Part shown: piece after piece, positions 14,201 through 40,041 of the stretch
How positions within the stretch are numbered: position 1 is the first letter of the stretch
Layout: each line of letters begins with the position of its first letter
Virus record (IMG/VR): IMGVR_UViG_3300028414_000019
Coordinates: 1-41,349 of that record
From: a virus
Strand: one strand, 5' to 3'
Length of the DNA: 41,349 bases
Translations under genes and position numbers: made by a program
The notes under the pieces: generated by a model
Databases searched by the model: none
What the model was told of the DNA's origin: nothing
Seen by the model: the letters and a program-made list of their open reading frames with translations, nothing else

Positions 14201-17200
14201 CTATATCTATTGAATCTATTGAAAAGACAACATTAGGATTTAAAGCAAACTTTAGTAAGCCTATTACGTTTGTAGAAGGCGATATTGTTGGATTCAATAA
14301 TATTAATAATGAAGTTAATGGCTTTTGGATTGTACAAAATATTGGATATACAGATATTGAGATACAACTAGATAATCCAATAACTGAAGATTTTATTGAC
14401 CTAGCAGATAGCACTCTTGGAATAGTATCAGAACTATCATCACGTAGAGTATCAACTCCTGCAGATATAAACAATATTACTAAACTTTATGATTTAGACG
14501 ATGATGATAGAGTGTGGGTTGACAATACTGGAAACGGAACATTTGGAGTATACGACAGCAGTATTATACGTAGTTTTAAACAAAGTATTACAGCACCTGA
14601 AATAGACAATAGGGAGTTTGGATCAGCTGTATCTGTTAGCAACAATAATACTACATTGGCAGTTGGAACACCTGATAAAGATGATGGCAAAGTTTATGTA
14701 TATACTCGTGGCAGCGAAGCCAGTGAATTTAAATTAAAACAGACATTAGAACCATTGTCTAATCATCATGATGGTGGTGCGTTTGGTACAAGTGTTGAAA
14801 TAACAGACAATGGTCAGTATTTGTATGTTGGCGCACCAACTGCTGCTAATGTTAAAACACGTTATAGAGGTATATTTACTGAAGGAGAAAGTTATCTAGC
14901 AGGCGATTATGTAAGTCAACGTGGAGCAATATGGAGAGCACTAGTTAATGTTACAGCAGAAAGTTCTACTATTAATCTACTAAGTCAAGATTGGGAAATA
15001 TCAGAACTAATAGTTACAGACACATCTGGAACAAGTCTTGGATATGCAAACCAAGGCGTGGTTTACATTTATAAAAGACTAATAGATCAGTCTTTTGATT
15101 TAGTAGACATTATTCTAAGTCCAGATCCAACAGAAAACGAACAGTTTGGTATTGCAATTAAATCAGCTTCTCCAAGTGATTTCCAACATAATACTGTTAT
15201 TAGAAGTCTTAGAGACAACGGCCGTGTTTACTTTGTTAACAACAAAGGGCAAGATGCTGTAACATCTTATGCATATTCAAGAGACACAAACTACAAAGGT
15301 GAATGGGAAAGTATTGCAAAATATATTCCTAATAATATTGTCTACTATGAAGGCGAACTTCGTCAAGCTAATACAACAGTACTTGCAGGTAATCCTTTTG
15401 ATAACAGTCAATGGGACGTACTTGATACATATGTTGATTATTTAGGTTATGTTCCTGATTCTTCAGAAGAAACAGCGCCAGCTCTTAACGATAGTAGTGA
15501 TTTTTTAAATGCATTGGGCATCGGCACAACTTATGATATTAGTAAAAATGGCGAAGTATTGGCACTTGGTGGTATACAAAACGGCGGCGAATATCGTATT
15601 GCAATCTATAGAAAAACAAACGGCAGATTTGTGTTTGACGAAAACATCAACCCTGCAACCGAAAACGAAGCGTTTGGAACTACATTAAGTTTAAATGACG
15701 ATGGTTCTAAAATAGCAATAGGCGCACAGCTATCAAATATCAATGGTATTTACAATGGTGCAGTATATGTATACAAACTTACAAACGAAGCATATGTTCA
15801 AGATCAAATATTGCTTGCACCCAACGGAGAAAAGACTGAAAGATTTGGCACAAATGTAAGTTTTAACTCTAATAAACTTGCTGTAACAAGTCGCAACGGC
15901 GATACCGCAGCATATGTAACATTTGATCAAGAACTTACAGAGTTTGATAATAAAGCAACAAATATATTTGATAAAATCAAAGATAATGGACAAGTTTATG
16001 TATACGAAACATTAAACAACAAGTTAGTATATGCTGAAAAACTTTATTCACAAGTAGACATATCTGATTCTTCTAATATATTAAGTGTATTAAATAGAAA
16101 TCATTTGTATGTTATTTCGATTGGAACTACTGTTGATGATAAAACAGGACTGATTCAAGATCATAGAACTGATTTAAATGCTACTGCTTGGAATATTAAT
16201 AGTCAAGGCGATAGTTATGTTGATATTGATAAAATCAAAGGTGTGTGGCTATATGATACAAACACAAATGATTTAATCACATATCTTGATTACATAGATC
16301 CAATAGCAGGCCGTATTGCCGGACCGGCAGAACAAGAACTTAGTTATAAAACTTATTATGATCCAGCAGTTTACAATGTTGGTACTAGAGATACCGGTGT
16401 ATCAGATCTTTGGGGGAAACAACAGGTTGGAAAACTATGGTGGAATCTCGATGCTATAAAGTGGTATAATCCATATCAAGGAAGTATACAATATAAATCA
16501 AATACATGGAATCAGATTATTCCTGGATTTAGTGTAGATGTATACGAATGGGTTGAGAGTGACTTGTTACCAAGCGAATGGGATCAAATAGCTGATACTA
16601 CCGAAGGCTTAGCCAGCAGCATAAGTGGAACATCATTATACAGTGATGATTCTTATGTAAGAGCAAGAGTATATGATAGTGTAGCAAATGTATTTGCACC
16701 AAAATATTATTTCTGGGTTAAGAATAAAAATACACTGCCTACTACATATGGCAGGAAGATTAGTTCGTTTGATGTTGCAAACTTAATAGCAGATCCAGCA
16801 GGACAAGGTTATAGACATGTTACATTACTCGATGGCAAAAAGTTTGCATTACATAATATAAAAAATCTAGTAAAAGACAAAGATACTATTTTGCATGTTG
16901 ATTACTATGTTCAAGACAATGCAGAAAATAGAAATATTCACAGCGAGTATGCATTAGTTGTTGAAGGATTAGCATCTAGCAAGCCAAACAATGACATTGT
17001 CGACAAGTGGGTTGATAGTTTAGCAGGCTACGACAGAAACGGAAGAGTTCTGCCTGATTTAAATATTAGTGTTGCTCAAAGATACGGTATTTTAAATAAT
17101 CCAAATCAAACTATTTTTGTTAATAGACAAGAAGCATTAAAACAAGTTGTTGAAAGAGTAAACGGAGTATTGTCTCAATATACAATAGTTGATGATTTTG

Positions 17201-20200
17201 ATATTTCTCCATTATTCCAAACAGAAACTCCTCCAAGTAAGTTTAGCAATGAGTGGGATACTCAAATTGACAGTGAAAGTTTGTTGAGATTTGTAGGTAC
17301 TGCAAAAATCAAACAAGCAACTCTTACGCCTATTATTGTTGATGGAACTATTACAGGTGCAACTATTACGCAATCTGGTAGAGGATATGTTGATAGTAAC
17401 TATACAACAGGCAAACGTCATGGTCCTACTGTAACTGTAGAAGGACAAGGTTCCGGCGCAGAGTTAAAAACTTACATCAACAATCTTGGTCAAGTTATTG
17501 AAGTTGAAGTAGTTGATGGTGGCAAAAACTATTTAAATGATACTACGCTTATTGTGCGTCCATTTAGTGTCCTTGTAACAACTGACTCCGAAGTAGGCGG
17601 CCTATGGGCAGTGTACAACTGGATGTCTTCTACACAGGAATGGTTTAGAAACTATATTCAAAGCTATGATGTTAACAAGTATTGGAGATATGTTGATTGG
17701 TATTCAACTGGATATAACGAAGTTACATCTATTGATTTTGTGATTGACGGAAGTTATGCACTTGAAGCATTAGACGATAAACTAGGAAATACTGTTAAGA
17801 TTGAAAATATTGGCAGCGGCGGCTGGATATTATTAGAAAAGATTGACAATCAAGTTGAAGTAGACTATACTATTAACTATAAAGTAGTAGGTAGACAAAA
17901 TGGTACAATAGAGTTTAGCAATACACTATATCAAAACGATGCAGTTGGATTTGATAATATAATCTATGATATATCGTTATATGATAGCGAACCAACAGAC
18001 GAAATAAAAATAATACTATATGCACTAAGAGATAACTTATTTGTTGATCAGCTAGAAGTAGAATGGAACAAACTATTCTTTAGTAGCATTAGATATGCAA
18101 TGAGCGAACAAGTTGATTTAGATTGGATATTTAAATCAAGTTTTGTAGTTGCAAAACACAATGTCGGAGAGCTTACACAAAAAGTAACATATCAAAACGA
18201 CAATCTTCCAAACTATCAAGATTACATAGAAGAAGTAAAACCGTATAGTACTAAGATTAGAGAATATATTAGTTCTTATGGTAGAACAGAACCAACACAA
18301 ACTAGTGTTACTGATTTTGATTTACCACCTCGTTATGATGCAGAGCGTGGACAGATTATTAGCGAAACTATTAAGTTTTTCAACAATGGCATTACTGGTA
18401 TAAATGATACTACAACTACATATCCACAAAAGCATTGGTTAGATAATGTTGGATTTGAAATAACAGAGTTTGTGGTTTACACCGGCGGCAGCGGATATAC
18501 TGACACTGCAAATGTAACAGTAAGCGGAGGCGGCGGCCCAACACTAGAAGGGCTTGCTTATATCGGCGGCGGTTCTATACAATATATAGAAGTTAATACT
18601 ACAGGCGCAAAATACTTTACAACACCAACTGTAACAATAAACGGAAGTTTAACAGAGGATGGTGTTGATGCAGTTGTTTATGCACAAATAGGAAACAGTG
18701 TAATCAGATCAACTCATATGTTAATGAAGTTTGATAGAGTTGTTGGTGCATATTACTTTACTACATTAGATGAAACAGAAACTTTTGTTGGCAACGGTGG
18801 TTTAACTGATTTTAGTTTAAAATGGCCATTGAGTACAAACAGTGCTGATATATCAATAACTGTAGCTGGCGAACCGCAGTTACTTAGTGATTTTGTATCA
18901 TCAAATGTTATTGATACAACCAAAACCTTTGATAGATTTCGTGGTAAAATAACATTTGCAAATGCACCTGCAAATAATGCTCAGATTGTTATAAACTATA
19001 AAAAATCATCTAGTTTATTAACAGCCGAAGATAGAATAAACTTCTTCTATAAGCCTACTACAAATATGCCAGGAAAAGAACTAAGTCAGCTAATGGACGG
19101 TGTTGATTACGGCGGCGTACAAATGGATAGTATCGGCTTTGGAGAAAATACCGGATTTGATGCAAACGGGTTTGGTATTGATTTTGATACATTTGACACT
19201 AACTACGAAGACGAGATTATTACACTAGATGGTAGTACTCAAATAATAACACTGAGTAGTGTTTTAGACTCAGGTGTAACATACAACGTGTATCTTAACA
19301 ATGTAAGAATAGATGATCCTGCATATGACGGAGTTAGTGTAACAGCTAATCCAAATGCAAAAATGGTATCACCACAAGGCGACAATATTACAAATACTAT
19401 ATTCTTAGATAGTGATGTTATAGAAACCAAAGACGGCGATATTGTGATCATTAGAAAATCTACTAGTGATGGTAGTTTTACTCCAGAGTCAACAGCATTT
19501 GATGTAAGTTTGCAAGGTGGAAACTTTGAATATACAACTGCAACTGGAATAGATTCTGGAGATATAGTTGTTGATGGCGACGGATTTGTTACAGAAACAA
19601 ACAGTAAAGGACCAGAAGAACAAGTTCCGGGACAAGTACTAGATACAGTTGATATTCAAGTGTACAATAGAAGTTCAGACGGACAAGGTGTTATTAGTGT
19701 TAGAAACTATATCACAGATGGCACAACTATCGAATGGGAGTTTGATAGTTTTCCACAATCAAATACTACACTGATTGTAAAAGTTGACAGCGATATTATT
19801 GATAACAACGATCTAAATGTTGATTATGAAAACAAAGTTATAAGTTTAAATGATAGTACAGCACTAGATGCAGGAAAAAATCTTTCTATACTATCAATCG
19901 GAACTAACGGAGTTGATTTACTTGATAGTGATAATATTGTTTCTACTGGTGACACTTTTATATACGATTTGCCAATCACATGGAAAACTGGATTAAGTTC
20001 TTTTGTAACAATCAATGGTGTATTACAAAATGATACAACTGACTACGGGCTTACAGAATCAGATAACAATACAGCACAGCTGGAGTTTCCGATTAAAATA
20101 ACTGCCGGCAAAATTATTGGATATACAATATATGATGGTAATGTAAACCAATACAGTCAGATGGTAATCGACAATACCTTTGCAACAGATGGCCAAAATA

Positions 20201-21906
20201 AAGTTCATAGATTTACAAATGATGTTGCATTGCCTATTATTAATAAGCCTCTTGCACATAATATTTTAGTCAAGCGTGGAGATGGTAGATTCTTAAATGC
20301 AGGCTATAGAAAAAAATATACAATAGATAGTAATAGATCATATGATATTGATAGATGGCAGTTTGAAGATACAACAGCCGTTAGAAATACAGATGTTATA
20401 CTTTATATTAATGGTTCTATTGTTAATGTTCTTGATTACTATTATGATACTGCAAACGGTAGAGTAGAACTTCTTAACAACAATGTTGGACTTATTGGAG
20501 ATACATTAGAAATCTTTATTATTAGAGATGCAGAATATTACTTTATAAACACAACAGTAGAAATACAAAATGGCACAGCAGTTAATGATCCAGTAGTTGG
20601 GCAAGATATAAGTTTTGAATTGGCTGATGATAGTACTACAGTTATTGCTTGTGTTGAAAAGTTTAGTAGATCAGGTTCAACACTATTAATAGAACTACAA
20701 GGATATATTAGAGAATTATTCCAACTAAAAAGTATTGACGACACACCGGAGATTGTAGCAAGTTGGGAAAATGATAGTACAAAAGCAGTTATTGGAGATA
20801 TTACTCTTATAGAAACAGATATTTTATCATTAACTGAAGCACCAGCTGATTGGGAAACTATAGACATCTATGTATTCAGTAATCACGATATAAACGGATT
20901 TGAAAGAAATACATATGATATTGTTTGGAATACAAATCAAGCACCTGCTGGAACACAGTTTTATATTGATAAAAACTTATTAAGCAGAGGATTTATCAAA
21001 CTTGAAAAACCTGCATTAAGTGCAAACTTTGTTTGGGTATTTAAAAATGGAATATTGCTTTCGCCACAAAACGATTATTCACTTGATGCTAGTGGAACAG
21101 GCGTTCAGCTTTACAGTAAAGTTACATCAAATGACAAAGTTGAAGTATTGCAGTTTACAGGATTAACAAGTAATCCTAAGTTTGGATATCGTATTTTCAA
21201 AGATATGTTAAATAGATTCCACTTCAAGCGTTTAAATAAAGACAACGAATACGAGTTGCAACAACCATTAAACTATTATGATTCTAATATTCAACTAGTT
21301 GACAGTACAGGTATTCAAGAACCTAACAAGGCATTGGGTGTACCGGGTGTTGTTTGGATAGACAAAGAGCGTATTGAATATTTTAGTGTTGATGGCAACC
21401 TTCTTAGACAGATAAGAAGAGGTACTTTAGGCACAGGCATTAAAGAACAATATTCAACAGCAACAAAAGTACAAGGCCAGGGTATAGAAGAAAATATTCC
21501 TTACAAAGACGAAACATCTAAAACTATGTTTGTTGGCGATGCTAGTACCAAGGAGTTTATACTTGATTTTGTTCCAACTAGTATTAACGAGATTGATGTA
21601 TTTTTAGCTGGAGCTAGATTGCGTAAAGATAACATTATAACATTTGACAAAACAGTAGATCAAGATTCACCTGAGGCAGATGTAACAATAGATCCTGAAT
21701 ATACTATTGAAAATATATCAACAGAAAGCGGCACAGTAACCGTGCTAACACTTGCAGATTATATTGACCCTCCTGCAGACGGAACATTTATTGAAGTTGT
21801 TCGTCGAACAGGAAGAATATGGAATGATACAGGAAAAACTCTAGCAGATAGTGAAAATCAAATAGCTAGATTTATAACAGACAAAACAATATCGCTACCA
21901 CGATAA
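8284..21906 (+). CDS. Giant baseplate wedge or fibre protein, in the gp7 position
   Basis: A single uninterrupted 4540-codon frame directly follows gp6, the place of gene 7 in T4; T4 gp7 has only 1032 residues, so homology is positional. The N-terminus (LLPRYFRTNPNKKFLGSTVD, then a Trp/Tyr-rich FREYYWLPNGPQ segment) looks like an attachment domain. A Trp/Pro/His block at about 1145-1185 (HPWEMLGYGIQPAWWENVYG) suggests another compact module. Residues about 2098-2569 contain repeated FG-GAP-like units. Short aromatic segments near 1450, 1706, 2193 and 2335 resemble CBM5/12-type carbohydrate-binding modules. Gly-rich G-x-GY repeats lie near 3020-3080 and 3395-3450. The C-terminus ends RIWNDTGKTL...TISLPR. 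It probably spans the wedge and reaches outward as an adhesin. It is certainly coding; the molecular role is inferred. Confidence 0.85.
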   Translation: MAYNDDQNEYPVPGSSNSKRTSASLLPRYFRTNPNKKFLGSTVDQLTNPGVVEKINGFVGSRVAKAVTTKDSYISDINSNRENYQLEPFAIVQDNLGNVEFDADYVDILGQISAFGGSIKNQDKLFAQEFYAWNPHIDFDKFTNFREYYWLPNGPQEVPIRGQGREVVSTFTIETVVDDDNTAYVFSPDGVTRNKSIRLFRGQTYRFEVNVPGHPISFATSRQKKVEYSPDSTLVSTLYREGIVLTHENVDDTLVNPQDYLEDGFIENGVIEFTVPGDAPENLYYVSQNDIDNSGAFNVFDIEENSDINVGDEIVGKKTYTTIDGWNMSNGMKVYFQGNVTPATYAQGLYYVEGVGKSIKLVPVSDLEVPAIFTQDTQVPFDVNGFDRVPWSNARSYAGTKDYICINRRDTSRNAWARYNRWFHKSVIEKSANINNQAIELDQTARAKRPIIEFEPNLRLWNHGNEAKLNVDLVDTFTKDVFSTIEGSVGYNIDGIDLVEGMRILFTADTDSLVKDKIFKVKFITHTNTTQISLVETDDTDPILDQTVLVKDGVKNAGKMYWYNATGWQPAQDKTGLNQAPKFDLFDSSGNSLGDNTVYDSTDFAGNRLFTYRVGEGANDTELGFPLTYKNFVNIGDIVFDFSLLAEDYKYKVNSIFKTISSDVFFLQEYNNQVISYTNAWKKANIKSSQYVIQKYTGEEYTNRFPINVYNNSADLTDLEIKVYVNNSYKSDYQTVNENKTTKVILPDDIGFTDIVVIKTKSSADKNNNGYYEIPHNFERNPSNKNITDFTLGEVNDHVEGLVSEVATFAGIQPGINNLRDLGPVAEYGRKFVQHSGPLNLSLYHLVNKSSNVVAAIRYALNEYTKFKRQFVQTATETSFNGTVKEYVDFIFNEINNTKTTSTPFYSTDMAATGGSKKIEYEILDSRLTVYSLSTVFDKSAISNKALYIYLNDQQLVFNKDYTFTGTGFVDISATLTDGDILTIHEYDNTEGSFIPPTPTKIGMFPAYVPELFVDSSYQTPQTVIRGHDGSITLAYNDYRDDLILEMEKRIFNNLKVDYNPDIFDINDIVGGADRNTKISSQEINNIIIKDFIDWTDVAKISDYTKNNFIVQGDSFTYNYTGSTNDRNEAVPGFWRGIYRQAFDTDRPHTHPWEMLGYGIQPAWWENVYGPAPYTSNNLILWTDLQNGVIREPGKTILRNKKYIRHNLLKHIPVNENGQLISPLESGYVSNFSYAPQSQNLFEFGDEAPTETAWRRSSGYPFSLMIAALIVRPAHTMGVGFDRSRTQRDIAGNLIYTATNKRINTTDLIFPKIENAVSAGFLNYISEYINADSLYPYTTYTNNLKLLDNKIGFKLAGFAEKNKLKLVLDSKTPLNKGNIFVPDENYNIVLRTSSPQIVATYSGVIIERTQSGYRINGYDKDTPYFKYNIPRESANDPFVNVGGISEAYITWTENKFLVAGKLVEYNDRYYRVNANHTTTTDFDLSLYTPLPSLPENGGRGAYFRKSFTNEISTLDYGTILNDEQQVVNFLLGYQKYLKDIGFKFEYFNKTTETVENWQLASKEFLFWITQNWANTSTITLSPLANQIEFEKEFYVVDNVHNNLYGFAVLNENGNVVSKNRSSIYRDNSNKFSLTSNEEGIYLIKLPLIQKEHLVLIDNTTVFNDTIYVPETGYRQERLKVVGYRTDEWNGSLNIPGFIYDDAKVTEWTSYKDYKTAELVKYKEFYYAARFTHSGTQEFVNGNWSRLDSKPTSELKPNWDYRANQFADFYDLDTDNFDSEQQRLAQHLIGYQKREYLANIIQDDVSQYKFYQGFIQDKGTSNAITKLFDKLGSANTDSVELYEEWAIRVGRYGATTSYDEVEFKLDESQFRIEPQLIEFVETVDSIRTDLVYQYPRKDVYLSPDDYAHTSLPLTTNSTEYTKTAGYVKLDQVNFLTTTKNDMLVLDIDSVDIGSYIWVPKDAQSWNVYKHIVSPISIESIEKTTLGFKANFSKPITFVEGDIVGFNNINNEVNGFWIVQNIGYTDIEIQLDNPITEDFIDLADSTLGIVSELSSRRVSTPADINNITKLYDLDDDDRVWVDNTGNGTFGVYDSSIIRSFKQSITAPEIDNREFGSAVSVSNNNTTLAVGTPDKDDGKVYVYTRGSEASEFKLKQTLEPLSNHHDGGAFGTSVEITDNGQYLYVGAPTAANVKTRYRGIFTEGESYLAGDYVSQRGAIWRALVNVTAESSTINLLSQDWEISELIVTDTSGTSLGYANQGVVYIYKRLIDQSFDLVDIILSPDPTENEQFGIAIKSASPSDFQHNTVIRSLRDNGRVYFVNNKGQDAVTSYAYSRDTNYKGEWESIAKYIPNNIVYYEGELRQANTTVLAGNPFDNSQWDVLDTYVDYLGYVPDSSEETAPALNDSSDFLNALGIGTTYDISKNGEVLALGGIQNGGEYRIAIYRKTNGRFVFDENINPATENEAFGTTLSLNDDGSKIAIGAQLSNINGIYNGAVYVYKLTNEAYVQDQILLAPNGEKTERFGTNVSFNSNKLAVTSRNGDTAAYVTFDQELTEFDNKATNIFDKIKDNGQVYVYETLNNKLVYAEKLYSQVDISDSSNILSVLNRNHLYVISIGTTVDDKTGLIQDHRTDLNATAWNINSQGDSYVDIDKIKGVWLYDTNTNDLITYLDYIDPIAGRIAGPAEQELSYKTYYDPAVYNVGTRDTGVSDLWGKQQVGKLWWNLDAIKWYNPYQGSIQYKSNTWNQIIPGFSVDVYEWVESDLLPSEWDQIADTTEGLASSISGTSLYSDDSYVRARVYDSVANVFAPKYYFWVKNKNTLPTTYGRKISSFDVANLIADPAGQGYRHVTLLDGKKFALHNIKNLVKDKDTILHVDYYVQDNAENRNIHSEYALVVEGLASSKPNNDIVDKWVDSLAGYDRNGRVLPDLNISVAQRYGILNNPNQTIFVNRQEALKQVVERVNGVLSQYTIVDDFDISPLFQTETPPSKFSNEWDTQIDSESLLRFVGTAKIKQATLTPIIVDGTITGATITQSGRGYVDSNYTTGKRHGPTVTVEGQGSGAELKTYINNLGQVIEVEVVDGGKNYLNDTTLIVRPFSVLVTTDSEVGGLWAVYNWMSSTQEWFRNYIQSYDVNKYWRYVDWYSTGYNEVTSIDFVIDGSYALEALDDKLGNTVKIENIGSGGWILLEKIDNQVEVDYTINYKVVGRQNGTIEFSNTLYQNDAVGFDNIIYDISLYDSEPTDEIKIILYALRDNLFVDQLEVEWNKLFFSSIRYAMSEQVDLDWIFKSSFVVAKHNVGELTQKVTYQNDNLPNYQDYIEEVKPYSTKIREYISSYGRTEPTQTSVTDFDLPPRYDAERGQIISETIKFFNNGITGINDTTTTYPQKHWLDNVGFEITEFVVYTGGSGYTDTANVTVSGGGGPTLEGLAYIGGGSIQYIEVNTTGAKYFTTPTVTINGSLTEDGVDAVVYAQIGNSVIRSTHMLMKFDRVVGAYYFTTLDETETFVGNGGLTDFSLKWPLSTNSADISITVAGEPQLLSDFVSSNVIDTTKTFDRFRGKITFANAPANNAQIVINYKKSSSLLTAEDRINFFYKPTTNMPGKELSQLMDGVDYGGVQMDSIGFGENTGFDANGFGIDFDTFDTNYEDEIITLDGSTQIITLSSVLDSGVTYNVYLNNVRIDDPAYDGVSVTANPNAKMVSPQGDNITNTIFLDSDVIETKDGDIVIIRKSTSDGSFTPESTAFDVSLQGGNFEYTTATGIDSGDIVVDGDGFVTETNSKGPEEQVPGQVLDTVDIQVYNRSSDGQGVISVRNYITDGTTIEWEFDSFPQSNTTLIVKVDSDIIDNNDLNVDYENKVISLNDSTALDAGKNLSILSIGTNGVDLLDSDNIVSTGDTFIYDLPITWKTGLSSFVTINGVLQNDTTDYGLTESDNNTAQLEFPIKITAGKIIGYTIYDGNVNQYSQMVIDNTFATDGQNKVHRFTNDVALPIINKPLAHNILVKRGDGRFLNAGYRKKYTIDSNRSYDIDRWQFEDTTAVRNTDVILYINGSIVNVLDYYYDTANGRVELLNNNVGLIGDTLEIFIIRDAEYYFINTTVEIQNGTAVNDPVVGQDISFELADDSTTVIACVEKFSRSGSTLLIELQGYIRELFQLKSIDDTPEIVASWENDSTKAVIGDITLIETDILSLTEAPADWETIDIYVFSNHDINGFERNTYDIVWNTNQAPAGTQFYIDKNLLSRGFIKLEKPALSANFVWVFKNGILLSPQNDYSLDASGTGVQLYSKVTSNDKVEVLQFTGLTSNPKFGYRIFKDMLNRFHFKRLNKDNEYELQQPLNYYDSNIQLVDSTGIQEPNKALGVPGVVWIDKERIEYFSVDGNLLRQIRRGTLGTGIKEQYSTATKVQGQGIEENIPYKDETSKTMFVGDASTKEFILDFVPTSINEIDVFLAGARLRKDNIITFDKTVDQDSPEADVTIDPEYTIENISTESGTVTVLTLADYIDPPADGTFIEVVRRTGRIWNDTGKTLADSENQIARFITDKTISLPR
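14575..15990 (+). other. FG-GAP-like beta-propeller region in the giant protein
   Basis: Within the 4540-residue protein, residues about 2098-2569 repeat a pattern of FG-x-[SA/T]-[VL]-S-x-[ND]-G-x-x-[LI]-A-[VI]-G followed by G-x-V-Y-[VI]-Y. Examples are REFGSAVSVSNNNTTLAVG with GKVYVYTRG, GAFGTSVEITDNGQYLYVG with QGVVYIYKR, and EAFGTTLSLNDDGSKIAIGA with GAVYVYKLT, then RFGTNVSFNSNKLAVTS. This is the integrin-alpha or FG-GAP blade pattern. The number of blades cannot be fixed by eye because two aromatic modules are inserted between them. Confidence 0.7.
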
Positions 21907-32164: not shown

Positions 32165-32707
32165 ATGAAACGATTTGTATGTTTTGATGACGATGGAAAT
32201 ATTTATAAAATCTCAAAAGAATCTGATGACAGATTTAAGTTTCTTGAGTGCGACTTTGAAGATGTTAAGAAGTTTATAGAAGGACATTGGAGTTTATTAG
32301 ACTACAAGGTTGAATATGATTTTATAGATAAAAAATATTATATTAAAAACCAGACACAAGTCGACGAGGACAAGCTGATGTGGTGTTTTCTATATCAGAT
32401 TCCTAGAACTGTACCTAATAACAAACAAATAGTATTAACTAAAGATAATGTAAAACATGTTTGGAAAATATCTGCTGATCCTGGTTTTATAGAAGATTTA
32501 AATGATAAAAAAGTTACAATCGATCTTTCAAACTACTACTTTAGTATAACAAAAAAAGATGACCCAAATGTATTGTATCGATTAATACGTTTTAATAACG
32601 GAGATGAAGTAGCGTTTGAAAATGATTTTGAGTTTGACAACGAAGAAGTTTCAGTATATACTATGCGTAGGTTTGATACTTATCATTATGAGGAAATAAA
32701 TGGCTAA
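32165..32707 (+). CDS. Conserved protein of unknown function
   Basis: The 180-residue protein has an acidic, aromatic, beta-rich composition: RFVCFDDDGNIYKISKE at the start, FIEGHWSLLDYKVEYDF near residue 40-55, and LYRLIRFNNGDEVAF near 140. No signal peptide, membrane segment or catalytic motif is visible. AGGAA lies 6 nt before the ATG, and the 3' end overlaps the third glycosyltransferase by 8 nt, so it belongs to the operon. I recall similar proteins as hypotheticals in marine phages. It may be a small structural or accessory protein. Confidence 0.75.
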   Translation: MKRFVCFDDDGNIYKISKESDDRFKFLECDFEDVKKFIEGHWSLLDYKVEYDFIDKKYYIKNQTQVDEDKLMWCFLYQIPRTVPNNKQIVLTKDNVKHVWKISADPGFIEDLNDKKVTIDLSNYYFSITKKDDPNVLYRLIRFNNGDEVAFENDFEFDNEEVSVYTMRRFDTYHYEEING

Positions 32708-33623
32708 CACATTTAGAGTTATTGATTGCGATATTATATATTTGTCATACGACGAGCCTAATGCAGAACAAAACTATGCAGACTTGTGTAAGAAAGTTCC
32801 GTGGGCAGAGCGTGTGCATGGTGTAAAAGGCAGTGATAGCGCACACAAAGCAGCCGCTAACAAATCAACTACTGATAGGTTTATTACAATAGACGGCGAC
32901 AATATTATTGATGAAAAGTTTTTGTCGCAAACAATGGACTTTGATGAAAATACAGATTTGACTAATAAAGTTATTAGTTGGACTGCACTTAATAGTATCA
33001 ATAATCTTACATACGGAAATGGCGGCATTAAGTGCTGGCCCAAACAACATGTATTAAACATGCGTACACACGAAAATGCACCCAACGATAATCCACATGC
33101 ACAAGTAGATTTCTGTTGGGATACACAGTACATACAAATGAATGGTACATACAGTACTATTATGAATAATGCTACACCGCATCAAGCATGGCGTGCTGGA
33201 TTTAGAGAAGGTGTTAAAATGGCACTGGATCAAGGCATGCGTGTTAGTGTAGAGGACTTTCATAAAAATCACTGGAAGAACTTGCACCGTTTGTACATCT
33301 GGCTAATGATTGGTGCAGATGTTGAGAACGGCCGTTGGGCTATCTACGGCGCACGAGAAGGATTGTACAAGACAATGTGTACAGACTGGGACTTTGTAAA
33401 TGTACGTGATTTTGATTGGCTCAATGAGTATTGGGATAGCAAAGATATGGATGAAGACCATATGGAAATAGAAACTGTTGGACTTGGGTATTCACTGATA
33501 GACGAACTTGAGTTGCCTATTGCTGCTGAACCACTTGATGGAAATCAAAGTCTATTTTTTAAAACAGTATACAAAAATCCGGCACGTGATAACAGCAAAC
33601 AATTCTTAGATAGAGAACAATAA
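32700..33623 (+). CDS. Glycosyltransferase-like protein 3 (DGD type)
   Basis: The 307-residue protein has CDIIYLSYDEPNAEQNYADL at the N-terminus, RVHGVKGSDSAHKAA at about 38-52, a DGD motif at residues 65-67 (RFITIDGDNII) and a GNGGIKCWPK segment near 115. The same order of motifs forms the C-terminal domain of the protein at 38395, so both belong to one marine-phage glycosyltransferase-like family with a GT-A metal site. The C-terminal half is rich in Trp and His and ends with a short tail after YKNPARDN. GAGGAAA precedes the ATG; the stop overlaps the radical SAM start by 1 nt. Substrate unknown. Confidence 0.75.
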   Translation: MANTFRVIDCDIIYLSYDEPNAEQNYADLCKKVPWAERVHGVKGSDSAHKAAANKSTTDRFITIDGDNIIDEKFLSQTMDFDENTDLTNKVISWTALNSINNLTYGNGGIKCWPKQHVLNMRTHENAPNDNPHAQVDFCWDTQYIQMNGTYSTIMNNATPHQAWRAGFREGVKMALDQGMRVSVEDFHKNHWKNLHRLYIWLMIGADVENGRWAIYGAREGLYKTMCTDWDFVNVRDFDWLNEYWDSKDMDEDHMEIETVGLGYSLIDELELPIAAEPLDGNQSLFFKTVYKNPARDNSKQFLDREQ

Positions 33624-34996
33624 TGGAACGCAGCGAAAGCGAAGAAATCAAGCGTATCGATAAGATTACGCAGGAAATATCTCCTACGTTTTGCTTTGCC
33701 AAGTGGTATCATGCAAACATCTATTTTCAGACAGGTGAAACACATAGTTGTTATCATCCTGCTCCTCACAAGATTGACGCAGCACCGCTATTAGAGAATC
33801 CTAGTGCTATACACAATACAGCACAAAAGAAAGCAGAACGTGCTGCTATGATGAAAGGTGAACAACCTAGTGGATGCAACTATTGCTGGAAGATTGAAGC
33901 AATGGGCAAAGACTATGTTAGTGATAGAAAACAACGCAACCAAACTATCTTTTTCAAAGAACGCTTGAAAGCTGTCAAAGAAGGCGGTGCTGAGTTTGAT
34001 GTTAATCCAGAATACTTGGAAGTTTCGTTTGGTAATGAGTGCAACTTCCGTTGTGGATATTGTCATCCAAAAGCCAGCAGTAGATATCATCAAGAGATCA
34101 AGCAACACGGTCCTTATACAAACGTAAAGAATCACAGATGCGATATTGACTGGTTTGAAATATTTGAAGAACAAAGCAATCCGTATTTAGATGCATTTTG
34201 GAAATGGTGGCCAGAGCTTAGTAAGGACTTGCATATTTTGCGTATTACAGGCGGTGAGCCTACAATACAACAAAGCACATACAAGTTGTTTGATATGCTG
34301 GATGCAGATCCTAAACCAGAGTTAGAACTAAACTGCAACAGCAACTTAGGTGGCAAGCCAAAGCAGTTGGAAAAGTTTACAAACCGTGTGAATGACTTGT
34401 TGACAAACAACAAGATTAGACGTTTTAAAATGTTTACAAGTATTGACACTTGGGGCAAACGTGCAGAGTATATTCGTGATGGGTTAGACATTGAAGTGTT
34501 TGAACGCAACTTAGATTACTTTATGCGCAACTGTGAAGCACCAATGGTTATTATGATTACATTTAATATTTTCAGTGTCACTACATTCCGCACATTGCTT
34601 GAAAAGATTCTTGAATGGCGTAAAAAATACAATGATGTAGAAACGCACAGATGGCAACGACTAGGGTTTGATACTCCGCATCTCAAAGAACCTCTACAGT
34701 ATGATATCAATATCCTGCCTAAAAACTACATGAGTTATATGCACGACCATTTGCAGTTTATCAAAGAGAACACAGATGATAATCGCAAGGATGCATTTAG
34801 CACTATCGAGTATGAAAAGTTTCGTCGTGTAGTTGATTACATGGAATCTACAGAATATCCACTAGATAAAGTTATTCAAGGACGTAGAGACTTCCACAAC
34901 TTCTTTGAAGAACAAGGGCGTAGACGTAATGTCGATCACGAACAAGTGTTTCCAGAGATGTCAGACTTTTTTGAACTTTGTAAGAAATACGTCTAG
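33623..34996 (+). CDS. Radical SAM enzyme with an additional N-terminal Cys cluster
   Basis: The 457-residue protein has the radical SAM CX3CX2C motif at Cys140, Cys144 and Cys147 (EVSFGNECNFRCGYCHPK) and the later ITGGEPT motif at 208-214 that helps bind S-adenosylmethionine. Unusually, further cysteines come before this core: Cys24, Cys43, Cys85 and Cys88 (HSCYHPAP and GCNYCWKIE), which look like a twitch or SPASM-type auxiliary Fe-S site placed at the N-terminus. Such enzymes make carbon-centred radicals for peptide or sugar modification. It is translationally coupled (TAATG) to glycosyltransferase 3. The 3' end overlaps the convergent minus-strand gene by 36 nt. The substrate is unknown. 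Confidence 0.9.
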   Translation: MERSESEEIKRIDKITQEISPTFCFAKWYHANIYFQTGETHSCYHPAPHKIDAAPLLENPSAIHNTAQKKAERAAMMKGEQPSGCNYCWKIEAMGKDYVSDRKQRNQTIFFKERLKAVKEGGAEFDVNPEYLEVSFGNECNFRCGYCHPKASSRYHQEIKQHGPYTNVKNHRCDIDWFEIFEEQSNPYLDAFWKWWPELSKDLHILRITGGEPTIQQSTYKLFDMLDADPKPELELNCNSNLGGKPKQLEKFTNRVNDLLTNNKIRRFKMFTSIDTWGKRAEYIRDGLDIEVFERNLDYFMRNCEAPMVIMITFNIFSVTTFRTLLEKILEWRKKYNDVETHRWQRLGFDTPHLKEPLQYDINILPKNYMSYMHDHLQFIKENTDDNRKDAFSTIEYEKFRRVVDYMESTEYPLDKVIQGRRDFHNFFEEQGRRRNVDHEQVFPEMSDFFELCKKYV

Positions 34997-35575
34997 TGCT
35001 TGTTTAGTTTCAGGCCACATATTTTCTTCTAGTTTTTTCATATAAAAATCAACGTCAACTTTCCAAAATGTTTGAAATGTTCCTTTGTACTCTAACTCTA
35101 TAGGATCTTTTAAATATCCTTGGTTGTGCATAATCTTTGACCATATGCGATGTACTTTACTTTGACTTCCAGTTTCTAATGTATTTGTACTAATATATTG
35201 AGGATTTTCTAATCCAACATAGTGCATACACACAGGCGTAAGCATTTGACTAGTCCAATGATTCATAGGAGAGTGTCGATAGTTGTGTACAGCATGGGCA
35301 CGTTCCCCGTCAACTATATCATTTAATACACATGTTCTAGCACTTATTCTATGTGCATTTTTTCCTAGTATGCCTAACTGTTGCAAACTATGGCTCACAC
35401 TAGTGCCTACAATATTATCTCCATAGTATAATAAAAATAAGTTTGCATTTTCGTGTTTGTTAATATAATCTATTAACACAGTTTTATTATGATTGTTATA
35501 AAACCCTTTAGCAGCAGCACCTTTATAAAAATCTGTTAGATCTTGTGTACCATTATACATTTCTAGTTTATACAA
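34961..35575 (-). CDS. Possible GNAT-like acyltransferase
   Basis: The 204-residue protein starts MYKLEMYNGTQDLTDFYKGA and has strand NLFLLYYGDNIVGTSVSHSL at about 45-64, then a RISARTCVLND segment and later SKVHRIWSKIM, which fit the beta-strand and helix order of GNAT N-acyltransferases. The usual acetyl-CoA pyrophosphate loop (Q/RxxGxG/A) is not clear, so the call is tentative. It is the last gene of the minus-strand operon; its start overlaps the adenylating enzyme by 8 nt, suggesting it uses the acyl group that enzyme activates. The 3' end lies inside the end of the convergent radical SAM gene. Confidence 0.6.
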   Translation of the reverse strand: MYKLEMYNGTQDLTDFYKGAAAKGFYNNHNKTVLIDYINKHENANLFLLYYGDNIVGTSVSHSLQQLGILGKNAHRISARTCVLNDIVDGERAHAVHNYRHSPMNHWTSQMLTPVCMHYVGLENPQYISTNTLETGSQSKVHRIWSKIMHNQGYLKDPIELEYKGTFQTFWKVDVDFYMKKLEENMWPETKQALDVFLTKFKKV

Positions 35576-36629
35576 ATGTTTGCGTCCTTATAATCTTTTT
35601 TAGATTATTATCTACTTCTATTTTATCTACTGCCCGAAGTCTAAATCTTGGAATATATCGATGTTGTTCTACAAAATTTGCCATATCTTTTATATTGCCT
35701 GTATAATATAATATACACTGATTTTTAATTTGTTGGCATAATGCAAGTTCTGCACCAGCTGCAACGGCCGCTTTTTCTATTTGTTCAGGGTATACTCTGA
35801 TAGTATTTTGTTTAAACATATTGTGTTTGCGTCCGTTAATTGTAAATCTATTTCTGTCACCGTTAACACAGTCACCACTAATCCATATGTTAGATTGACT
35901 ACTCCATTTGCAAGCAATCTGCCCGTTTATAATATCAACTTCTGCACCCGGAGTAATACTATCTATAGTATATGTATTTTCTTCTTCGCTGTACAACACC
36001 ATAGGAGGTACTTCAGTACTACCGTATACATTGTATACTTTTCCTGGATTATGCTCACGTAGCTCGTCCAGCATACCTGTTGGTGTAAAATCACTTCCTG
36101 TAATAACAGTTTCTAAACTACTATAATCTAGTGTCTTCCATCTATCGTGTTTGTGTAATACTTTCCAAACATTGGGTAATAATAATGTATGTGTCGGACG
36201 TATTTCGTGTACACGATTTACATAGTCAATGCCTTTGAATGTTTCGATGTATAGTTCGCAATCTAGTTTTAATGCAAGGTATACACTTAGCACACTAAAC
36301 GCAATACCGCGAGGAGAATAGTAACTGAGTATTTTACTATTTTTATCTAACCCTAGTGTTTTAATATTTGCATCTACAACTTGTTCTATGGTTTCTTTGG
36401 TATGTCCAATGTCCTGCGGAAATCCAGTTGTACCGCTAGTACTTAGATTAAGAAACTGATCACCTCTATAGCCATAGCTATATCCATTTTGCCAATACCA
36501 GTTGTGTAATAGTTTAAGAACGTTCTGTTCCCAGTCTGGGTTGTTACTGTAACAATTCACAGGATTACTTAGTGTGTAATCGCTTATCCATTGTTCGGAT
36601 ATTTGTTCACCGTCTATAAAAATTTTCAT
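35568..36629 (-). CDS. Compact AMP-forming ligase (ANL superfamily)
   Basis: The 353-residue protein has the main motifs of adenylate-forming enzymes in order: the phosphate loop STSGTTGFPQ at 63-72, an aromatic-loop YGSTEVPP at 202-209, the ribose-binding ISGD at 250-253, the hinge NGRKHNMFKQNTIRVYPEQI at 265-284, and a C-terminal Lys segment NNLKKIIRT at 341-349. These would activate a carboxylate as acyl-AMP with ATP. At 353 residues it is well below the usual 500 or so; the region before the phosphate loop is only 60 residues. No carrier-protein gene is seen, so the acyl acceptor may be CoA or the product of the next gene. Start follows the DUF6356-like stop directly. Confidence 0.88.
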   Translation of the reverse strand: MKIFIDGEQISEQWISDYTLSNPVNCYSNNPDWEQNVLKLLHNWYWQNGYSYGYRGDQFLNLSTSGTTGFPQDIGHTKETIEQVVDANIKTLGLDKNSKILSYYSPRGIAFSVLSVYLALKLDCELYIETFKGIDYVNRVHEIRPTHTLLLPNVWKVLHKHDRWKTLDYSSLETVITGSDFTPTGMLDELREHNPGKVYNVYGSTEVPPMVLYSEEENTYTIDSITPGAEVDIINGQIACKWSSQSNIWISGDCVNGDRNRFTINGRKHNMFKQNTIRVYPEQIEKAAVAAGAELALCQQIKNQCILYYTGNIKDMANFVEQHRYIPRFRLRAVDKIEVDNNLKKIIRTQTFV

Positions 36630-36848
36630 TTATTTCTCGTTGATACAAGCAGGAAAGTTTTTTTCAGTACCGTCGGTGATTTTTTTAGCAATCTTGTAAG
36701 GTGTAAATCCAAACATAAAAGGAAAAAATGCGTGTAATATGCCCATTATAAAAATACCAAGTCCCAAAAAACTATAACATATTGCTATAAAACAATGTGT
36801 AAAATAGTTAGTATTTGCTTTTTTTAAATGTTTCCAATCAAATAACAT
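36630..36848 (-). CDS. DUF6356-like small membrane protein
   Basis: The 72-residue protein resembles the DUF6356 pattern: an N-terminal FDWKHLKKAN segment with a following NYFTHCFIA, a hydrophobic helix (residues about 20-42), then LHAFFPFMFGFTP and a short basic tail. One or two membrane helices are expected, so it would sit in the host inner membrane. The family is known from bacteria and has no defined function; some members were labelled as capsule biosynthesis proteins. AAAGGAGAG (36855-36863) lies 6 nt from the ATG, and the AMP-ligase gene follows without a gap. It may anchor the pathway at the membrane; this is inference. Confidence 0.75.
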   Translation of the reverse strand: MLFDWKHLKKANTNYFTHCFIAICYSFLGLGIFIMGILHAFFPFMFGFTPYKIAKKITDGTEKNFPACINEK

Positions 36849-36885: not shown

Positions 36886-36914
36886 ATTATAGCATATTTT
36901 TTAGTGTAAGTCAA
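36886..36914 (-). promoter_or_regulatory. Strong sigma70-type promoter of the minus-strand enzyme operon
   Basis: On the minus strand TTGACT (36914-36909) and a perfect TATAAT (36891-36886) are 17 nt apart, with TGC forming an extended -10. The -35 box overlaps the last codons of the upstream fibre gene. Transcription would start near 36880, giving a leader of about 30 nt with AAAGGAGAG. The operon thus has its own promoter and may also be read from the late fibre transcript. Confidence 0.85.
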
Positions 36915-38316
36915 CCCATGTTGTTCCGGTATATCCTTGGAACTTGTTATTACTAGTGTTAAACAATATCATACCTGCTTCTGCTGTCATACTATCTCTG
37001 TCAGCAAATGTAGTACCTCTAGCTTTAAATACTGGAACTTCTAATACGCCCTTGTTGTTGAACTCTAGTCTATTTTCTGTATTTGTAACATGTGTATTAG
37101 ACGCTGAACTTAGTTGTATACCAAAACTTGACGGCATAGTATTTCCAGTTGCAGCCGGTGTCCCGTCAACTTTAAATCCAAAAAGCCCACCACGTTTGTA
37201 TTCAGTACCGTTGTATCCCCAGCTTTCGATACTTAATAGTTCGTCATTGTTTAATAATGATGTTTTAGAATTGCCTTCGCCTCTGTGTGCAAGAGAGTCA
37301 ATCGAGTCAGTTTGTATACTTAAACTATCAGCAATAATATTTACTTCGTCATTTTCATTACCAATGTTTACCTTATCATTTACACCACTAATAAGTGTTC
37401 CATTGCTTGAACCTGATACAATATTAATAAATCCATCTTCGCCTTGTGTGTCATATGCAACTGCTCCAACAAGTCTTCCCATAAAATCAGCTTTGTAAGT
37501 TGGCGAGCTTTCCAAGGACAATCTCATTACCGGTGTGCCATCGTAATGATTTAAGTTGGCTCTTACTTCTGTGTCAGCTCTAGTTGCTCCAATATTAACT
37601 ATAGGACCTCTTGCAACTGCATCATCTTCAGGATAAACAGGATGAGCAAGTCCACCGTAAAACTCCCATTGATCGTATCCACCAGTATTGTTGTGTCCAG
37701 TTAGTCGTGTAGCAATATCATCGCCTGGCTGTATAGCAAGTAACTCTCCAGTAAGATTTCCTGTAACATTGCCTGTTACGTCTCCAGTTACTCCGCCTAT
37801 TACTTCACCAGTATGTGTACCTGTAGTATCACCGAAAAAATCTCCGTAGCTAGTACCATTAAAGTCACCGTTAAATGTACCGTATATTACACTATCGGCA
37901 GTTATACTTCCTGTAAGCTCACCGTAAAACGATCCAGTAATACTGTCGGCATTAATAGATCTTGCTCCAGTATTAACAATAGCTTCGCCATTGCTATCTA
38001 CAATGTTTCCGACAACATCAGCAATAACCAATCCAGTATCACCATCAAATGCTAACCCCTCGTTGTCGTCGTATACACTACCAGTAACACTACCAGTTAG
38101 ATTGCCTGTGGAAGATAAAATAGTATTACCTTCTGTATCTTCAATGGTTCCAATCAAAGAACCATACAAGTTTCCAGTTTCAACATCAACTAATATAATA
38201 CCGTCAACATCAACAACACTGGCTTTAATCTGTCCCTGCCAGCTATCAACAATAACTGTTTCGTCTGCTGTAATAATATCTAGTCGGTATGCTTCACCTG
38301 GTATAAAATCGGTCAT
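36901..38316 (-). CDS. Tail fibre-like protein on the opposite strand
   Basis: The 471-residue protein starts at ATG 38316, preceded by GAAGAGGAA; a GTG 11 codons upstream is possible but lies on the late promoter. The N-terminal 220 residues are repeats of short G/T/D-rich beta strands (GTFNGDFNGTSYGDFFG, GDVTGNVTGNLTGELL), typical of phage fibre shafts. The middle is beta-rich, and the end (AEAGMILFNTSNNKFQGYTG, then TWVDLH) is a common C-terminal signature of phage adhesins. A GATAAATA late site lies 24 nt upstream, so it is probably a late virion protein even though it is encoded against the other structural genes. The receptor is unknown. Confidence 0.85.
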   Translation of the reverse strand: MTDFIPGEAYRLDIITADETVIVDSWQGQIKASVVDVDGIILVDVETGNLYGSLIGTIEDTEGNTILSSTGNLTGSVTGSVYDDNEGLAFDGDTGLVIADVVGNIVDSNGEAIVNTGARSINADSITGSFYGELTGSITADSVIYGTFNGDFNGTSYGDFFGDTTGTHTGEVIGGVTGDVTGNVTGNLTGELLAIQPGDDIATRLTGHNNTGGYDQWEFYGGLAHPVYPEDDAVARGPIVNIGATRADTEVRANLNHYDGTPVMRLSLESSPTYKADFMGRLVGAVAYDTQGEDGFINIVSGSSNGTLISGVNDKVNIGNENDEVNIIADSLSIQTDSIDSLAHRGEGNSKTSLLNNDELLSIESWGYNGTEYKRGGLFGFKVDGTPAATGNTMPSSFGIQLSSASNTHVTNTENRLEFNNKGVLEVPVFKARGTTFADRDSMTAEAGMILFNTSNNKFQGYTGTTWVDLH

Positions 38317-38339
38317 TTTTGTTGGTTCCTCTTCTCTAG

Positions 38340-38347
38340 TATTTATC
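38340..38347 (-). promoter_or_regulatory. Late promoter-like GATAAATA, minus strand
   Basis: On the minus strand GATAAATACT has the same core and following bases as the plus-strand late sites. The predicted start near 38334 gives an 18-nt leader with GAGGAA before ATG 38316. It is divergent from the sigma70-type promoter at 38359. Confidence 0.7.
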
Positions 38348-38358
38348 ACATTCTGTTC

Positions 38359-38394: not shown

Positions 38395-39351
38395 ATGTAT
38401 GATATAATCTTTATTGGCGAAAAAAACAAACAGTGGAACTCTGCAAAACAAAGATTTCCCCTTTTAAAAAATGCAGATACTCTTGAAGATGCAAAGCGTA
38501 TTTGTATTACAAAAATGTTCTGGGTAGTGTGGCCTGACATTGTAATAAACAATGATTTTAACTTTGATTACGAACCAGATGCATGGAGCACTGATTATGT
38601 TCATGTATTTAAAAATAATGAGTTTTATGATGGTGTTTCGCTAATACCTAAAAATGCAACAATATCAGACAGAGAGTTGCAGCATAGATTTTTTGTTAAC
38701 AAAAAAGAAGTAGATATACAAGCAAGTGTGCCTGCTCCGTATGATATATTCAACATTGATACATATAAAGAATACTTAAACGCATTAGAAACTAGCACAA
38801 CTGATATGTTTTGGATGAGTACTGCTAATATTAGTATTGATACAGAGTTTGTTGACACGTTCTACATATCACATCACGAACAGATTGATAGAAAACAAAA
38901 CCATGCATTTATACATCAAGTAGACGGCGAAGATTTGTACAATGGTTTATTTTTATGCAGCAAACACGTTCCGTTAAGTAAACGAGAAGTAGAATATAGA
39001 TTTCCTGTAAATCGAAAAGAACACGATATAGTTACAAGTGTTGCTGGTAAGTACAATATATTTAATGTTGTTGATACATATGAAGAATATATAAACGCAT
39101 TAGAAACTAGTACAACTGAAATGTTTTATATTATTCCCCCAACGGTAACAGTTTGTAAAGATTTTATGTTTGATGATTATTTTGAACATTCTAATAGTTT
39201 TGATAGACGTATTAATCATGTATTTCTAAATGGCAAGTTTCATGATGGTATTATACTTTGCAGTAAATATGCTAAAATCAGTAAACGTGAATGGCACTTT
39301 AAATTTATTGCTAACAAAAAAGAAGTAGATATACAAGCAAGTACACCTAAC
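38395..39351 (+). repeat. Three tandem protein-level repeats of a degenerate glycosyltransferase core
   Basis: Units at about 38395-38736, 38737-39048 and 39049-39351 encode the repeats described for the gene. Shared landmarks are TKMFWVVWPDI, TDMFWMSTANI and TEMFYIIPPTV, which line up with TPMLYIVDGDA of the intact domain, and the closing KKEVDIQAS or RKEHDIVTS. The repeats are diverged at DNA level, so they are old duplications. Confidence 0.75.
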
Positions 39352-40041
39352 CCTTACGATATTGTTTTTATTAGTTATCAAGAACCAAATGCAGATGAAA
39401 ACTTTGAAAATCTAAAAACTAGATTTCCAGATAGAGTAATACATAGAGTACATGGTGTCAAAGGAATACATCAGGCACATATCGAAGCAGCAAAGGTATG
39501 CAATACACCTATGCTTTATATAGTTGATGGCGATGCTGTAGTTGTTGACGATTTTAACTTTGATTGGCAAGTTCCAGCTTGGCAATATAATCATGTGCAT
39601 GTATGGCGTAGTAAAAATCCAGTAAACGGATTAGTTTATGGGTATGGCGGTATTAAGTTATTTCCAAGACACGAAACACTTAACATGGATATTAGTAAGC
39701 CTGATATGACCACAAGTATTAGTGATAAGTTTGTAGCTATGCCAAGTGTTTCAAATATTACAGCATTTAACACTGATGCGTTTAATGCGTGGAAAAGTGC
39801 ATTTAGAGAATGTGCAAAACTATCGAGTAAGATTATTGATAGACAAAAAAGTCAAGAAACTAATGAACGTTTGAGGACTTGGTGTATGCATATGATACCC
39901 GATACTCCGTTTGGAAAGGATGCACTGCAAGGAGCCAAAGCAGGCACAGCTTACGGCACTCGCAACAAAGGTGATAGCCAAGCATTAAAAGCTATCAATG
40001 ATTTTGATTGGTTAAAGGAAAAGTTTGATGGAAATATATAA
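38395..40041 (+). CDS. Glycosyltransferase-like protein with three degenerate N-terminal copies
   Basis: The 548-residue protein has a C-terminal domain (about 320-548) like glycosyltransferase 3: YDIVFISYQEPNADENF, HRVHGVKGIHQAHIEAA, DGD at 378-380 (MLYIVDGDAVVVDDFNFDW) and GYGGIKLFPR. Before it come three repeats of about 100-115 residues (1-114, 115-218, 219-319), each with an [A/S]TT-type helix, an MFW or MFY strand, an acidic [DN]F[NM]FD-like segment and an end such as FFVNKKEVDIQAS. They align with the GT core but lack the DGD. The start is supported because MYDIIFIGE matches the repeat start, although there is no ribosome site. The protein may bind several copies of a sugar or protein partner. 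Confidence 0.8.
   Translation: MYDIIFIGEKNKQWNSAKQRFPLLKNADTLEDAKRICITKMFWVVWPDIVINNDFNFDYEPDAWSTDYVHVFKNNEFYDGVSLIPKNATISDRELQHRFFVNKKEVDIQASVPAPYDIFNIDTYKEYLNALETSTTDMFWMSTANISIDTEFVDTFYISHHEQIDRKQNHAFIHQVDGEDLYNGLFLCSKHVPLSKREVEYRFPVNRKEHDIVTSVAGKYNIFNVVDTYEEYINALETSTTEMFYIIPPTVTVCKDFMFDDYFEHSNSFDRRINHVFLNGKFHDGIILCSKYAKISKREWHFKFIANKKEVDIQASTPNPYDIVFISYQEPNADENFENLKTRFPDRVIHRVHGVKGIHQAHIEAAKVCNTPMLYIVDGDAVVVDDFNFDWQVPAWQYNHVHVWRSKNPVNGLVYGYGGIKLFPRHETLNMDISKPDMTTSISDKFVAMPSVSNITAFNTDAFNAWKSAFRECAKLSSKIIDRQKSQETNERLRTWCMHMIPDTPFGKDALQGAKAGTAYGTRNKGDSQALKAINDFDWLKEKFDGNI

Follow-up and report, generated by a model that had tools for sequence, protein, structure and literature searches.

In the window, by which we mean the whole analysed stretch of 41,349 bases (IMG/VR virus record IMGVR_UViG_3300028414_000019), three minus-strand genes (Table 1) form an operon that we read, with a probability of slightly more than one half, as the simplest version of a modular phage cassette for a small N-acylated (amide) molecule. 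What we observe for this cassette is its gene order, its folds and motifs, its intact catalytic residues, a conserved promoter, selection and recurrent linkage. That the phages make a small amide molecule is probable, since an acid-activating ligase is combined with a fold of the N-acyl amino acid synthase type and since a halogenase occurs in the relatives. The tight packing described by the first-pass annotation is borne out by reading frames, strands and junctions, the DUF6356 gene and LIG353 being 0 nt apart and LIG353 and ACT204 overlapping by 8 nt, and ACT204 furthermore overlaps the 3' end of the convergent rSAM457 by 36 nt (34961-34996). The operon is more than a chance arrangement of reading frames, because it combines Pfam matches, a conserved promoter and purifying selection, the latter being indicated by dN/dS values of 0.03-0.10 in close comparisons, more distant pairs being near saturation.

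Table 1. Positions of the operon, its promoter and the genes bordering it in the window.
Feature	Position	Strand	Basis
DUF6356 small membrane protein, 72 aa	36630-36848	-	Pfam PF19883, 2.2e-8
LIG353, compact ANL (AMP-forming) ligase, 353 aa	35568-36629	-	Pfam AMP-binding, ANL motifs, fold matches
ACT204, GNAT-fold FeeM-like putative N-acyltransferase, 204 aa, TTG start	34961-35575	-	AF2, Foldseek, weak Pfam FeeM
Extended -10 sigma-70-type promoter	36886-36914	-	kept in 34/38 relatives
TF482, tail-fibre-like gene, upstream border of the slot	36901-38349	-	same-strand neighbour, most tail-slot loci
rSAM457, convergent radical SAM gene bordering the slot on its other side	33623-34996	+	Pfam/PHROG, conserved border

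The window carries T4-like baseplate genes, among them a baseplate wedge subunit (phrog_10646, E 1.7e-293), directly after which a single reading frame of 4540 aa is found (8284-21906). Of the two genes bordering the operon, TF482 has weak PHROG matches, which are of unknown function, and rSAM457 matches PHROG 14086 (E 1.5e-10) and Pfam Radical_SAM (E 3.9e-5, below the cut-off); its weak viperin-like PADLOC match (1.3e-5) is probably that of a generic radical SAM protein. Further out, the genes at 38395-40041 and 32700-33623 encode two proteins that share a domain with about 30% identity, the larger of which, of 548 aa, weakly matches glycosyltransferase family 2 and is apparently built from repeats whose number differs among relatives.

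The near-perfect promoter noted in the first-pass annotation reads TTGACT-17-TATAAT with a TG ahead of the -10 element, giving 11 of 12 matches and an extended -10, and its -35 element lies within the final codons (Val-Asp-Leu) of TF482. The region is not enriched in promoter-like sites in general (18 found, 16.6 expected). Of 38 relatives, 34 have a matching promoter where the tail-fibre gene ends, ahead of DUF6356, the ligase, a p218 gene or ACT; one relative has the near match TTGACA-17-TATTAT (L217), two have the site 10 nt beyond the stop codon instead (L179 and L283), and it is absent from L118, where the next gene has the opposite orientation. Since the matching site is kept in so many relatives and ahead of such varied cargo, the comparison suggests a promoter that is part of the slot itself and is maintained by selection.

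LIG353 matches the Pfam AMP-binding family (PF00501) with an E-value of 1.2e-17 and 64.3 bits against a cut-off of 29.9. The match covers profile positions 170-378 of 384, so that most of the usual N-terminal part is absent and the enzyme is compact; the full-length N-terminal domain of the ANL superfamily is not found in LIG353, yet compact members such as 4gs5 are known, and we therefore regard it as a variant of the superfamily rather than as excluded from it. The core motifs TSGTTG, YGxxE and SxD are intact, with T64-G69, Y202, G203, E206, S251 and D253 invariant in 15 of 15 aligned ligases, and the assignment as a compact AMP-ligase with ANL motifs thus stands. The active-site lysine, which had been singled out for checking, is present as K345 of an NL(K/R)KI-type motif and is likewise invariant in all 15, its position being assigned by motif and not by superposition. 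The predicted model has a mean pLDDT of 79.8 and is weak beyond residue 340, that is in the C-terminus carrying the lysine. LIG353 as an acyl-adenylating ANL ligase is a supported prediction. In predicted fold it comes closest to enzymes that activate acids and form amides, with matches to MenE, to McbA, which is an amide bond synthetase, to THR1 and adenylation proteins, and to the 350-aa 4gs5, and its sequence-profile matches include the coronafacate ligase Cfl, fatty acid CoA ligases and 4-coumarate CoA ligases. The presence of McbA and Cfl among the best of these, together with the fact that ACT often occurs without the ligase, could be taken to mean that the ligase alone forms the amide bond in the manner of McbA and that ACT attaches another acyl group independently or serves a different pathway. 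MenE, adenylation domains and CoA ligases however match equally well, and ligase and ACT are paired in two separate ligase clades, and we consider it very unlikely that the ligase acts alone.

The Pfam scan of ACT204 itself gave no match. An AF2 model, built on an alignment of 24 relatives with 45-85% identity to ACT204, has a mean pLDDT of 90.6, and Foldseek returned 26 PDB matches at E <= 0.001, those listed being GNAT-fold acetyltransferases or FeeM. The GNAT matches start at 1.3e-5 and FeeM (2g0b_A) follows at 2.1e-4, with query TM-scores of 0.51-0.52 that are among the best, although several CoA-using GNATs equal FeeM by E-value; next in the list is the CoA-dependent AHL synthase RpaI (1.8e-3). 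When the 24 family members were scanned singly, Pfam FeeM (PF21926) was the only GNAT-type family seen, matching 10 of them below the cut-off (best E 0.0047; 13.1 and 12.4 bits for the two members with bits given, against 27). The [QR]xxGx[GA] loop that binds the acyl-CoA pyrophosphate is found in 0 of the 24 aligned members, and LuxI and FeeM-type enzymes likewise diverge at this loop. The GNAT fold of ACT204 is accordingly well supported by the model, and a FeeM-like function is a reasoned, putative assignment. The suggestion that the 204-residue protein is a possible acyltransferase is thereby strengthened, since neither profile nor structure comparison points to an unrelated fold. An apparent relationship to TAL effectors was an artefact of summed repeat matches and was rejected.

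The third protein is, as proposed, a DUF6356-like small membrane protein, with 34.5 bits against a curated Pfam cut-off of 24.4. Its gene adjoins the ligase gene in several ligase clades and also in other settings (L152, L256-258 and L260), and it is frequently absent from related cassettes, yet it tracks the ligase.

What the pathway acts on, in which order its steps run, which carrier holds the acyl group, what happens at the membrane and how the phage benefits are matters of inference. LIG353 would consume ATP in converting a carboxylic acid to acyl-AMP, and the acyl group would then probably pass to a host thiol, either CoA or the host acyl carrier protein, or directly to ACT. A host thiol is invoked because no phage carrier was found: in agreement with the earlier remark that no carrier protein is visible, a search of 11 related phage records, for which the control worked, gave no PP-binding domain. 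ACT204 would transfer the acyl group onto a small-molecule amine, most likely an amino acid; no finding points to a sugar, which had been named as an alternative acceptor. DUF6356 may anchor ligase or product at the inner membrane, and in related phages a flavin halogenase, a TauD-like oxygenase or a desaturase would tailor the product by adding a halogen, oxygen or a double bond.

Recurrence of the genes was followed through IMG/VR relatives, which gave 74 non-redundant arrangements. In the tail slot the ligase is accompanied by ACT in each of the 32 arrangements whose contig is long enough to be informative (L029 and L030, which end within the ligase, were left out), and in every one of these the two are adjacent or have only a halogenase between them. 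DUF6356 lies immediately upstream of the ligase in 11 of the 32, and a flavin halogenase is present in seven, in five cases between ligase and ACT, overlapping briefly at both its junctions in L012, and in two after ACT and ligase. Elsewhere the slot holds a p218 gene, a TauD-like oxygenase and ACT, the oxygenase taking the place of the ligase (n=4), ACT next to a fatty acid desaturase gene of opposite orientation (L118), or ACT without ligase, halogenase, oxygenase or desaturase (n=9, with a p226 gene ahead of ACT in two). Altogether, ACT lacks a recognised ligase in 15 of the 74 arrangements, one of which lies at the edge of its contig, and the ligase can therefore not be the only donor route of ACT. 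Of the proposed three-gene order, the co-occurrence of ligase and ACT thus holds, but the fixed trio does not, since DUF6356 is often missing and ACT also occurs without the ligase. A tail-fibre-like gene adjoins on the same strand in most tail-slot loci. The spot between this gene and the radical SAM gene is a recurrent, swappable cargo slot in many uncultured T4-like phages and not an oddity of this phage, and the first-pass view that such a set is unusual inside a tail fibre region must be corrected. In one group (L099-L110 and L117) ACT without ligase lies 3' of the radical SAM gene, whose strand it shares and which it briefly overlaps, and the tail-fibre-like gene is convergent, so that the contents of the slot have been inverted or exchanged. 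Some contigs carry additional genes: in L155 (8241-12565) ACT, ligase and halogenase are followed by two unassigned genes, a weakly QueC-like gene and then radical-SAM-like genes, and L011 (897-4086) has several more genes resembling radical SAM.

The slot of the window itself contains no halogenase. The halogenase of the relatives belongs to the flavin tryptophan halogenases (Pfam PF04820, E 3.5e-71) and, in an alignment with RebH, has the catalytic Lys and Glu in place. Outside the slot the ligase is found without a recognised ACT in 25 arrangements, 19 of which include a halogenase. In L264, L270, L280 and L281 the order is a clamp-loader gene, the halogenase, the ligase, a protein of about 195 aa, in some a desaturase (a Pfam match to fatty acid desaturase), and a last gene; we take the first to be T4 gp44-like and the last glutaredoxin-like, both names having been read from the sequences by eye. 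The protein of about 195 aa (6875-7468 in L280) appears co-linear with ACT by eye, the hhalign E-value of 0.32 not being significant.

The two genomic homes bear on a further explanation, namely that the operon modifies macromolecules, the ligase activating an acid that ACT attaches to lysines or N-termini, either of the adjacent tail-fibre protein or of some host protein. The conserved position next to the tail-fibre gene and near glycosyltransferase-like genes would fit such a role, as would the protein acetyltransferases among the GNAT fold matches. Ligase-halogenase cassettes are however also found among replication genes, away from the tail genes, ACT runs with the radical SAM gene and not with the fibre gene in one group, and a tryptophan-type halogenase and a desaturase fit a small molecule better, all of which makes macromolecule modification unlikely.

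In the ligase tree (midpoint root, the placement of row L203 being unsure) the 329-aa-type ligases of the tail slot nest within a halogenase-ligase clade, and the ligase type of the window groups with ligases lacking ACT. Since both deep ligase clades contain members with and without ACT, the tree indicates that the pairing of ligase and ACT probably arose at least twice. The ACT tree does not match that of the ligase, which is what recombination of modules would produce. Such a mismatch, a slot that swaps its cargo and a promoter that precedes different cargo types would also suit genes that have nothing to do with each other, that is, unlinked cargo with separate roles in host metabolism, sharing a promoter by chance in a recombination slot. 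We nonetheless hold this to be decidedly unlikely, as the same ligase, acyltransferase, halogenase and DUF6356 families are repeatedly paired in different genomic places, and we retain the reading of a cassette for a small amide molecule. Among isolated phages no relative of ACT, DUF6356 or the 195-aa protein was found, and the ligase had only remote matches, in unannotated gut phage contigs. A cellular origin was considered and rejected, the scan of GTDB contigs having given no confirmed or close relative of ACT or LIG, though distant relatives may escape this short-pattern scan. A role in defence was likewise rejected, PADLOC giving no match for the three proteins or the halogenase.

A more far-reaching proposal, which we put forward tentatively and regard as somewhat doubtful, is that lytic T4-like phages possess an exchangeable modular pathway in which a LuxI/FeeM-like synthase makes N-acyl amino acids that are halogenated, oxidised or desaturated and that serve as an intercellular signal of infected cells or as a membrane-active compound against hosts or competitors. 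If the exchangeable ligase-acyltransferase-halogenase cassette is indeed widespread, T4-like phages would make metabolites of their own during infection.

Each of the enzyme classes is already known, and it is their combination in T4-like phages together with the modular exchange for which we found no description in the literature, searched mostly outside subscription journals. With the FeeM-type N-acyl amino acid synthases (PF21926; 2g0b) ACT204 shares the GNAT fold, a similar length, the lack of a canonical CoA pyrophosphate loop and a weak but repeated profile match, but it differs in its identity of about 10%, its score below the Pfam cut-off, its phage-borne gene and the lack of an acyl carrier gene in the phage records searched. 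The bacterial NasY clusters for stieleriacines and thalassotalic acids, in which an N-acyl amino acid synthase is packed with modifying enzymes (PMC12479983), resemble the cassettes in their short-spaced or overlapping genes, whereas the partners of NasY are ThiF and nitroreductase on bacterial chromosomes and those in the phages are an ANL ligase, a halogenase, an oxygenase or a desaturase. Biosynthetic gene clusters borne by phages likewise bring small-molecule biosynthesis into phages; they are described as rare, most of them being bacteriocin clusters in temperate phages, and an antiSMASH survey gave none in 153 cyanophages (PMC10452541). Compact ANL ligases, MenE-like or such as the Dyadobacter protein 4gs5 (350 aa), have the AMP-forming fold of LIG353, and 4gs5 is of the same length. 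To our knowledge no natural substrate has been established for phage halogenases of the tryptophan type found in the relatives, and the cassette offers such enzymes a pathway partner and hence a testable substrate. VirX1 (6qgm) and other tryptophan-type halogenases of cyanophages belong to the same flavin halogenase family as that of the window's relatives, which shares about 25-28% identity with the annotated cyanophage enzymes and is here tied to a ligase and an acyltransferase.
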